Positions 43,088 to 45,727 of a stretch of DNA of 64,000 nucleotides are shown piece after piece. Source of the stretch: Thermincola carboxydiphila. Lineage in GTDB: Bacteria; Bacillota; Thermincolia; Thermincolales; UBA2595. Position numbers and translations under genes: made by a program. The DNA lies in the NCBI GenBank assembly GCA_016841045.1, contig JAENZX010000004.1, positions 1 to 64,000 on the forward strand, in the 5' to 3' direction. Within the stretch, counting starts at the first letter, position 1. Each line of letters opens with the position of its first letter. Below the pieces are notes generated by a model. The model was not told where the DNA came from and did no database searches. It saw only the letters and a program-made list of their open reading frames with translations.

Positions 43088-43969
43088 TTAATCTTCTATT
43101 AACATTGGCAATTGAACTCTAAAGCATACACTAAAACCTGGCTCATCCACTAATGAAATACTACCTCCGTAAAACTCTACCAATTGTTTTACGATAAAAA
43201 GTCCCAGACCGCTCCCATTTTTGCCTTTAGTGGTAAATCCCCGCTCAAATATCCGTTGAGTGTTTTCAGCAGGTATTTCTGAACCGGTATTAGCTATTAA
43301 AAAATTGTAGTGGGAATTCTCTTCACTGATTTTGAGCAAAACCTGTCCATTACTAATGGATTGCTCTTTGACTGCAAAAAAGGCATTGTCTATAAGATTC
43401 CCAACTACCCTTACAAGTTTGGTGGCTGGAATTCGCAGTTTCTCAAGATTAGAAAAAATATAAATATCAAACTTTATGCCCTGTTCTGTTGCTAAACTTT
43501 TTTTCTTTATCAGGCAGGCGGCAAATTCTATCTGGGTAAGCCCGCTCAACTTACTGTCTGTATACATATCATCAGTAAGAGTTGAAATGTAAGACATCAT
43601 CTGAGAAGTTTTTTGAAGCTGAGCCAAACCGCAAATAACCTGAATATGGTTCATAAAATCATGACGTTGAACCCGTAAAACATTAAGAAGTTCCTCATTT
43701 TTTTTTAAATTTAAGAGCGTAAATTCAGCTTCTACTTCTTTTTTGGACAGCCGCAAAATTTCTCTAGTTTGAAATATTGCAGTGATAGCAAGTACAACGC
43801 CGGCTAACAATGAAAAAGTTGTTATATAATAACGGGGAATATTTATCGGAAGGTTAGATTCATATACTCCGTAGGTACCATTAATCACTACAACCAGCGT
43901 CTGTGCCAAAATGACATTTATAAGTATAATTGTTTTATGGTTGAGTGTTTTGTTAGGTTCTTGTTTCAT
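43088..43969 (-). CDS. Sensor histidine kinase of the agr-like locus (GHKL type)
   Basis: 293 residues. Two membrane helices (about 13-32 and 47-66), then a Spo0B/AgrC-type phosphoacceptor helix LRVQRHDFMNHIQVICGL with His103. The HATPase domain has VGNLIDNAFFA (N box near 190) and GKNGSGLGLFIVKQL (G box near 255). It should phosphorylate a LytTR-type regulator, but none is in the window: a terminator and hisZ follow. Canonical AgrC has six or seven helices; the missing ones may be in the 166-residue protein just upstream. Weak AAGGATC site before ATG 43969. Confidence 0.88.
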   Translation of the reverse strand: MKQEPNKTLNHKTIILINVILAQTLVVVINGTYGVYESNLPINIPRYYITTFSLLAGVVLAITAIFQTREILRLSKKEVEAEFTLLNLKKNEELLNVLRVQRHDFMNHIQVICGLAQLQKTSQMMSYISTLTDDMYTDSKLSGLTQIEFAACLIKKKSLATEQGIKFDIYIFSNLEKLRIPATKLVRVVGNLIDNAFFAVKEQSISNGQVLLKISEENSHYNFLIANTGSEIPAENTQRIFERGFTTKGKNGSGLGLFIVKQLVEFYGGSISLVDEPGFSVCFRVQLPMLIED

Positions 43970-43999
43970 AATAGATCCTTTACAGTTTCTTTTATAAAA

Positions 44000-44500
44000 T
44001 TAACCCCTTAAACGCAACAGAGAAAAATTAGTCAGAGCAACAAGTAACACAACAAAGATCAGTAATGCATCCCCTACATAGCCTGCCAAAACATGAGTCC
44101 ATGGATTAGCCCATATCTGCTCAACAGGCATTGCGAGAAGCTTATAAAATAAAGGCATAAGTAATGACTCGCCCAAAATAAGGGTTACTATACCTAGAAG
44201 ACTGGCAGTTAGTGAGATACCTCCCGGAAGAAAAGTGAACTTCGAAATTAGATAAGCCATAACAAAAACTAAAACTAAAGTATGAGTCCCAAATGGTATG
44301 CCAAAACTTTTGTAGAAGCCTCTTACCAGGAAAACAGCCAAGCCATGTAAAATACCTATTTTTATAATATTACGGGTTTCGGTTTTAACTCCCAGAAGGC
44401 CTATTCCTGCATAAGCAATGAAGCAGGCTTCAACCCAGTAAAACAAAAGCAAAACTCTGATATCATCGAAATTTGACGCAAGCGTCCTGATTGTTTCCAT
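44000..44500 (-). CDS. Polytopic membrane protein of the agr-like locus
   Basis: 166 residues, almost all in about five hydrophobic helices, with few charges. AGGAGG lies 6-7 nt before ATG 44500. It sits between the AgrD-like peptide gene (19 bp away) and the kinase gene (30 bp away), all in one direction. I do not recognise a family. Its position and topology suggest that it is the peptide-sensing membrane part of AgrC made as a separate chain; a peptide exporter or immunity protein are other options. Confidence 0.72.
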   Translation of the reverse strand: METIRTLASNFDDIRVLLLFYWVEACFIAYAGIGLLGVKTETRNIIKIGILHGLAVFLVRGFYKSFGIPFGTHTLVLVFVMAYLISKFTFLPGGISLTASLLGIVTLILGESLLMPLFYKLLAMPVEQIWANPWTHVLAGYVGDALLIFVVLLVALTNFSLLRLRG

Positions 44501-44519
44501 TTAATTAACCTCCTGTTAG

Positions 44520-44639
44520 TTACGTAAGATGTCGGGGAACCTCGGGTTGGTAGCCATTGCTGCCGGTTGCAGCTGCAATATTAACCTGGGCCAGTATTGA
44601 TAAAATTGTAAACAGAATAAAGAAGATTTTTTTCTTCAT
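44520..44639 (-). CDS. agrD: AgrD-like autoinducer precursor without cysteine
   Basis: 39 residues from ATG 44639 (GGGGG site 6 nt upstream; ATG 44642 overlaps it more closely). Amphipathic N-terminal helix MKKKIFFILFTILSILAQV, a short core AAATGSNG, and the tail YQPEVPRHLT, which matches the conserved AgrD tail (YEPxVPxxL). In known AgrD the ring Cys lies five residues before that Tyr; here Thr25 holds that place and the only other core hydroxyl is Ser27. There is no cysteine at all. The gene overlaps the agrB stop (ATGA) and is followed by the membrane protein gene. Confidence 0.78.
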   Translation of the reverse strand: MKKKIFFILFTILSILAQVNIAAATGSNGYQPEVPRHLT

Positions 44640-45271
44640 CATTTACCCCCTTTCGTTAGATAACTTACCAATGTGTCAACAAAAGCTATGAAACGATAAC
44701 CTGCGGGAGTTAAGCTGAAACCCTGCCAATGAAAACCCAGGACGCTTGCAAGCAAAAATTCGTTGGTAATTCTTATTACTTCGAAATACCCACACAAGAC
44801 CCAAACCACCCATAAAACACTAATGCCAAAAGAATAACGGCGCAGTTTGTTTCTTTGTCCTTTAGTTGTTATTGGCTTACCTGGAGTATCCGCCGGGGCA
44901 AAGCTATACACCGACCAAAAAACGAAAAGAACCACAACTCCCACAATAACGTAAAAAATATCAACCGAACCCGGCGCATGTTTTGCAGTTAAACCAAAAA
45001 CCGGAAAAATAACGGCCCCTGATAAAATACAGTTCTTTGAACAAGACGCATGAGCTCCTCCGGAAAAAATACGAAGTAAAGACCCGGTGACCGCCGCTGC
45101 CAGCGACAGCTTCACAACTCCAAGAGGCCAAGCCGCCAGCACAATGGCCAGATAGCCAAATACCGTAGTTGAATAAACTGTTAGTGAATACTTTACGATG
45201 GCTTTATCATTTTCTCCGAGGTTTAGCTCCTTTACAAAAATACCTGTTATTCTATCAATCGTTCCACCCAT
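44639..45271 (-). CDS. agrB: AgrB-like peptide-processing membrane protease
   Basis: 210 residues from ATG 45271, chosen because GGAGGT lies 5 nt upstream; the longer frame to 45385 runs into the yerC terminator. Several membrane helices; the catalytic pair is in RIFSGGAHASCSKNC: His74 and Cys81, with the H-x6-C spacing of AgrB. It cleaves AgrD at its C-terminal tail and forms the ring through an acyl-enzyme. The stop overlaps the agrD start, so expression is coupled. Confidence 0.9.
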   Translation of the reverse strand: MGGTIDRITGIFVKELNLGENDKAIVKYSLTVYSTTVFGYLAIVLAAWPLGVVKLSLAAAVTGSLLRIFSGGAHASCSKNCILSGAVIFPVFGLTAKHAPGSVDIFYVIVGVVVLFVFWSVYSFAPADTPGKPITTKGQRNKLRRYSFGISVLWVVWVLCGYFEVIRITNEFLLASVLGFHWQGFSLTPAGYRFIAFVDTLVSYLTKGGK

Positions 45272-45374
45272 AATACCTCCAATAGCAAAATCAGTACTCG
45301 CCTGAAGATAGAGTGTTGATTTTAGATTAATTAAATCTATGATTCGACAGTTCTTTAGTTTTTCCTGCAAATTT

Positions 45375-45406
45375 TGGCAAAACAAAAGACCGCTATCAAC
45401 GGCCTT
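45375..45406 (-). terminator. Intrinsic terminator of yerC
   Basis: A 7-bp stem with one G-U pair (45386-45392 with 45400-45406) is followed on the minus strand by TTGTTTTG, 10 bp after the yerC stop. Confidence 0.78.
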
Positions 45407-45415
45407 GTAGTCTTC

Positions 45416-45727
45416 TTATTCTTTTATTCGGCTAAGGACAAGTTTGTAACCATCAGCCCCGTAATTGAGGCATCTCTTAACCCTGCTGATAGTTGCACTG
45501 CTGGCTCCGGTTTTCTCAGCAATCTCACTATAAGTCGAATTTGCCTCAAGCATCTTGGCAACTTCCAGCCTCTGGGCAAGCGATTTAATCTCGGCTACAG
45601 TACATATATCCTCAAAAAAACGGTAGCATTCCTCACGTGTCTTAATTGTCAGTACAGCATCAAAAAGCTTATCAATCAATGGATCTTTCAAACGGTTGTC
45701 ATAATCCAATTCAATCCCCACCCACAT
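45416..45727 (-). CDS. yerC: YerC/YecD (TrpR-family) regulator, probable histidine regulator HisR
   Basis: 103 residues. TrpR-like helix-turn-helix: CTVAEIKSLAQRLEVAKML then YSEIAEKTGASSATISRVKRCLNYG. YerC-type proteins are predicted histidine-responsive repressors in Firmicutes. The CTAG-centred palindrome on the hisZ promoter (42992-43009) is a good candidate site. Start ATG 45727 has no clear site; TTG 45709 with GGTGGGG 6 nt upstream is an alternative. It is downstream of purD on the same strand but separated by a terminator. Confidence 0.88.
   Translation of the reverse strand: MWVGIELDYDNRLKDPLIDKLFDAVLTIKTREECYRFFEDICTVAEIKSLAQRLEVAKMLEANSTYSEIAEKTGASSATISRVKRCLNYGADGYKLVLSRIKE

Follow-up and report, generated by a model that had tools for sequence, protein, structure and literature searches.

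A probable four-gene agr-type locus in Thermincola carboxydiphila with threonine at the nucleophile position of AgrD and a predicted two-gene receptor

The stretch of Thermincola carboxydiphila DNA analysed here (the window) comprises 64,000 nucleotides of contig JAENZX010000004.1. Its minus strand carries, in order, yerC (45727-45416), agrB, agrD, an open reading frame (ORF) for a 166-amino-acid protein, a gene for a 293-amino-acid kinase, and hisS followed by his genes. An earlier note on this DNA described agrB and agrD, and the two following genes, which it did not mention, complete the agr operon downstream of agrD. The features are as follows.

45386..45406, minus strand: terminator-like hairpin between yerC and agrB, from a pattern scan whose count is at chance level for the region.
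44639..45271, minus strand: agrB, membrane peptidase/cyclase of 210 amino acids (PF04647, E=7.1e-35), with Shine-Dalgarno sequence GGAGGT.
44520..44642, minus strand: agrD, 39-40 amino acids, with a leader, a TGSNG core and a YQPEVPRHLT tail, no Cys (TIGR04223), and ribosome-binding site AAAGGGGG immediately 5′ of the gene.
44556..44570, minus strand: predicted five-residue ring T25-G26-S27-N28-G29 (codons ACC GGC AGC AAT GGC), placed by the nucleophile position in 118 AgrDs.
44000..44500, minus strand: five-helix membrane protein of 166 amino acids, a stand-alone homologue of the sensor half found at the N-terminus of AgrC-like receptors.
43088..43969, minus strand: SPOB-type histidine kinase of 293 amino acids with two membrane helices (SPOB_a and HATPase_c), the putative kinase half of the receptor.

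None of the four genes is interrupted, and each is provided with a good ribosome-binding site. Promoter and terminator scans of the region returned no more matches than expected by chance, an Rfam search near the operon gave nothing credible and no T-box, and a plasmid search with the window DNA found no similar sequence. The agr operon lies between yerC and the his operon (region 43088-45727 of the window), a placement shared by G009, a genome of the same order, and it may be connected with histidine regulation.

The agrB gene is intact. Its product belongs to the PF04647 family, and His74 and Cys81, proposed in the earlier note as the catalytic residues, are invariant across the family alignment. 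The start of agrD overlaps the agrB stop, and the ORF comprises 40 codons from the first ATG and 39 from the second. The peptide scores 23.5 bits on TIGR04223, above the curated cut-off of 19 bits, and it carries a hydrophobic leader and, in YQPEVP, the [YH][QE]P..P tail that is near-invariant in 118 AgrDs. The description of a 39-residue, Cys-less AgrD overlapping agrB is thereby upheld, and the possibility of a chance ORF was rejected because the leader, the tail, the AgrB neighbour and the ribosome-binding site all fit. Instead of the Cys or Ser of a standard AgrD, the position five residues before the tail (-5, relative to Tyr30) is occupied by Thr25 in the 39-residue numbering (codon ACC), and Ser27 is the only other hydroxyl residue of the core, both as originally read. 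The remark that this core is polar also holds: TGSNG has the second-lowest hydropathy among 118 rings and is one of only three that lack a bulky hydrophobic residue.

The residue at -5 was surveyed with an AgrD profile in which this position was masked, applied to small ORFs in the neighbourhood of 121 AgrB genes from relatives. An AgrD was found beside 118 of these genes, with Cys in 62, Ser in 48, Thr in seven and Leu in one, the profile having been trained on a set chosen by leader and tail motifs. One of the three nucleophilic residues Cys, Ser and Thr (C/S/T) is thus present at -5 in 117 of 118 peptides, as opposed to a fraction of at most 0.42 elsewhere between -15 and +11. A Thr-specific DNA pattern contributed four of the seven Thr loci, and when they are set aside C/S/T is present in 113 of 114 peptides, as Thr in three of them. 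Position -5 therefore appears to be the nucleophile position, with Thr among three accepted residues. The earlier note had taken a Thr-lactone or an uncyclised form to be new and had stressed the missing Cys; its interpretation was overstated in that Ser or Thr takes the place of Cys in 55 of the 118 AgrDs and Ser lactones are by no means confined to S. intermedius.

Nine further genomes were found to encode Thr-type AgrDs, seven of them with agrB as the immediate neighbour. Since a search with the window AgrB revealed no relative among the genome contigs, the named Thr-type relatives were taken from the DNA pattern, which gave 22 matches, seven of them real and one already found; the remainder are mostly chance matches in unrelated genomes. 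The predicted rings are TGFWS in G011, TGNWS in UBA2598, TGPWS in both Moorella stamsii and G389, TSVMG in Alkaliphilus peptidifermentans, TSIAA in Peptoclostridium litorale, and TNGIG, TTIAA and TSIWM in metagenome-assembled genomes (MAGs) of two Clostridiales and a member of the Clostridia, respectively. In G389 (locus L187, minus strand) the end of agrB is separated from the Thr-type agrD by a transposase-like frame, the agrB ORF of the TSIWM genome is short (140 amino acids), and no agrB is present on the 8-kb stretch of the TTIAA genome. Between M. stamsii and G011, the agrD genes differ by 22 silent and six amino-acid codon changes in 39 codons, and the Thr codon itself differs silently between genomes (ACC, ACT or ACA). 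Judged from these codon changes, Thr at the nucleophile position is under purifying selection in other genomes; the genus of the window is represented by one genome, and the evidence thus concerns the Thr-type agrDs of those genomes and not the window copy. Thr at this place in agrB neighbours, which the earlier note had suggested looking for, is accordingly both recurrent and conserved. Near relatives exchange Ser and Thr (SGPWG vs. TGPWS), and one clade of the AgrB tree, in which the gene order is agrB-agrD-sensor-kinase, shows swaps among Cys, Ser and Thr. At least five changes are needed to account for Thr in this tree, and well-supported branches force at least two of them; the window sequence falls in a weakly resolved part.

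These data bear on the explanation that the nucleophile of an AgrD originally of the Cys or Ser type has been lost in this lineage, leaving a decayed or drifting agrD in a non-functional operon. Two circumstances that the earlier note had named as refuting its reading do occur. The locus of G009, the nearest syntenic relative, in which the genes, yerC and hisS among them, are arranged as in the window, encodes an AgrD with Cys (CNVSG|YQPSLP), and a second agr-like locus in the T. carboxydiphila genome itself (contig C7; L028:710-2987) encodes another (CGWLG|GEIEMP); the very polar ring of the window could be added to them. Neither locus demonstrates decay, given that other genomes also have Thr-type genes accompanied by an intact agrB. 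Furthermore, the four genes of the window are open with good ribosome-binding sites, the catalytic residues of AgrB are kept, and the replacement is precisely the Thr that recurs in nine other genomes under purifying selection there. We regard decay as unlikely; the wider set indicates nucleophile swapping, and the window agrD is probably not a decayed allele. Two further observations were made at these loci. After the sensor gene, the G009 locus (L115:5511-7327, plus strand) has two tandem kinases. The contig C7 locus also encodes a 157-amino-acid sensor-like protein, an AgrB and a 277-amino-acid two-helix protein in which no Pfam kinase domain was found.

The chemistry of the product can be predicted from characterized peptides. 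In C. thermocellum, LC-MS/MS has established that the AgrD Clo1313_2818 is cut at A24|S25 and yields a Ser25-Phe29 lactone pentapeptide followed in the precursor by Tyr30 (PMC5322536); Ser lactones have also been described in E. faecalis (GBAP), S. pseudintermedius and S. intermedius. The window AgrD shares the residue numbering of the C. thermocellum AgrD, from which a tail-less Thr25-Gly29 ring is directly predicted. At neutral pH, a lactone analogue of the Listeria autoinducing peptide (AIP) that lacks the tail is in part hydrolysed and in part rearranged by O-to-N shift (PMC11297923), and the window peptide may accordingly end up as a homodetic cyclic pentapeptide. By analogy, the most probable product is a ring of five residues, Thr25-Gly29 (TGSNG), either as the lactone or as its O-to-N isomer. 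AgrB would cleave AgrD after Gly29 and hold the peptide on Cys81 as a thioester, the Thr25 hydroxyl would close the five-residue ring, and the leader would be removed near Ala24 to give the TGSNG lactone, or the plain cyclic pentapeptide derived from it by the O-to-N acyl shift. Thr is a modest chemical extension of the proven Ser-lactone pentapeptides, and a Thr-closed ring is the simplest reading because Thr recurs at the nucleophile position and is under purifying selection in the genomes concerned.

Two other outcomes of processing have been weighed. AgrB could only cleave, in which case linear TGSNG, with or without leader residues, would be the functional signal. Thr is a weaker nucleophile than Cys, and one other family contains a conserved, AgrB-linked class of peptides without C/S/T at -5, which indicates that AgrB can do without a hydroxyl or thiol at this position in some cases; nevertheless, a linear product has no need of the C/S/T that is kept in 117 of 118 AgrDs, and Ser at the same place is proven to cyclise, which makes this outcome quite improbable. 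Closure by Ser27 in place of Thr25, for which the presence of a hydroxyl in the core speaks, was rejected as highly improbable. It would produce a three-residue ring, C/S/T is found at -3 in only 3% of AgrDs vs. 99% at -5, and the Thr-type rings TGPWS, TGNWS and TNGIG carry a hydroxyl at neither -3 nor -4.

The receptor of the window appears to be divided. AgrC usually combines a sensor and an SPOB/HATPase kinase in one chain, whereas the window has two genes for proteins of 166 and 293 amino acids. The 166-residue protein matches residues 7-155, and the kinase residues 160-445, of 441-471-amino-acid kinases encoded beside agrBD in related genomes, and the kinase aligns to positions 134-393 of the 414-position staphylococcal AgrC model. 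No Pfam or NCBIfam model matches the 166-residue protein. Its AlphaFold2 model has five membrane-length helices (mean pLDDT 92.4) and gave no match with E ≤ 0.001 in a fold search against the PDB, so the sensor role is drawn from homology to the fused receptors. Of 398 genomes sampled from the phylum, 148 encode relatives of this protein, in most cases as separate frames. Among the fetched loci, the order is fused receptor-B-D in 12, sensor-kinase-B-D in 17 and B-D-sensor-kinase in eight, and sensor-B-D without a kinase in the fetched stretch was found in 20. The last group and the empty fold search are compatible with an accessory membrane protein (for export or immunity, for example) that became joined to the kinase at a later stage in some lineages. 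This possibility is rather doubtful, since the 166-residue protein corresponds to the very part of AgrC that is missing from the window kinase, which begins at position 134 of the model, and since the sensor gene, where separate, precedes the kinase gene in the same order as in the fusion. For window-like loci, pairing of the two proteins as a receptor is well supported by this fused/split correspondence; the pairing is less clear in the 20 kinase-less loci, where the sensor-like protein may have another or an additional role.

On these grounds, agrB-agrD-sensor-kinase is probably a real and functional four-gene agr-type locus in which threonine is the nucleophile and two genes encode the receptor. 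We consider it fairly likely that the operon makes a Thr25-closed TGSNG signal and that this signal is sensed by the 166-residue protein together with the 293-residue kinase. No response regulator gene is adjacent to the operon, the next gene being hisS. The two LytTR genes of the genome are on other contigs, one beside a LytS-like kinase gene and one beside a fused AgrC-like kinase gene; the latter pair is on contig C62 (L186:120-2217; kinase of 448 amino acids), which carries neither of the two agrB genes of the genome.

Several characterized systems resemble this locus in part. Clo1313_2818 shares the cut at A24|25, the ring at 25-29, Tyr30, a conserved Pro35, a hydroxyl nucleophile and the lack of an N-terminal tail, the corresponding window features being predicted; it differs in having Ser instead of Thr and in lying outside any agr operon (PMC5322536). 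AgrB/AgrD-type processing and ring closure by a hydroxyl, predicted for the window, are common to S. intermedius, S. pseudintermedius and E. faecalis GBAP, whereas these systems have Ser, N-terminal tails, hydrophobic rings, a one-chain receptor and an adjacent AgrA or FsrA. The agrBDCA locus of S. aureus is similar in the His and Cys of AgrB, the leader-core-tail plan of AgrD and an AgrC-kind kinase; by contrast, it has a Cys thiolactone, a one-chain AgrC and an adjacent AgrA. The AgrDs of M. stamsii, A. peptidifermentans and P. litorale likewise have Thr at -5 from YQPE[VI]P, usually in the order agrB-agrD-sensor-kinase, but such Thr-type relatives keep one large hydrophobic ring residue (TGPWS, TSVMG, TGNWS).

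Neither a Thr-type AIP nor a two-gene AgrC is reported in the open-access literature searched, subscription papers being mostly beyond reach. The wider proposal, to which we give an even chance, is a third AgrB ring chemistry of Thr esters or O-to-N cyclic pentapeptides in several clostridial lineages, served by a two-protein AIP receptor, with a window ring that has no hydrophobic residue and would be recognized otherwise than through the usual hydrophobic contacts. If true, any of the three natural side-chain nucleophiles can serve AgrB and lineages exchange them, a point of relevance to the evolution of thiolactone and lactone signals and to the mining of AIPs by their Cys. The split receptor would provide a handle for studying ligand binding apart from kinase control, a separation that is difficult in one-chain AgrC, and together with the unusually polar ring it gives the locus an interest beyond a small step from Ser lactones.

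The family without C/S/T at -5 (f23; loci L272-L282) has, as at L273:914-1620 (plus strand), an agrB with intact His and Cys followed by a gene for a 39-amino-acid peptide. Lys25 is invariant in 11 of 11 of its peptides, within [ILMA]K[P]xx[HY]SP[EK].P, and their product would be closed as a lactam or else remain linear. In L273, as read from the sequence, a 238-amino-acid membrane protein is encoded upstream of the peptide gene, and a 110-amino-acid ORF downstream (L273:1642-1974, plus strand) resembles a stand-alone LytTR DNA-binding domain.
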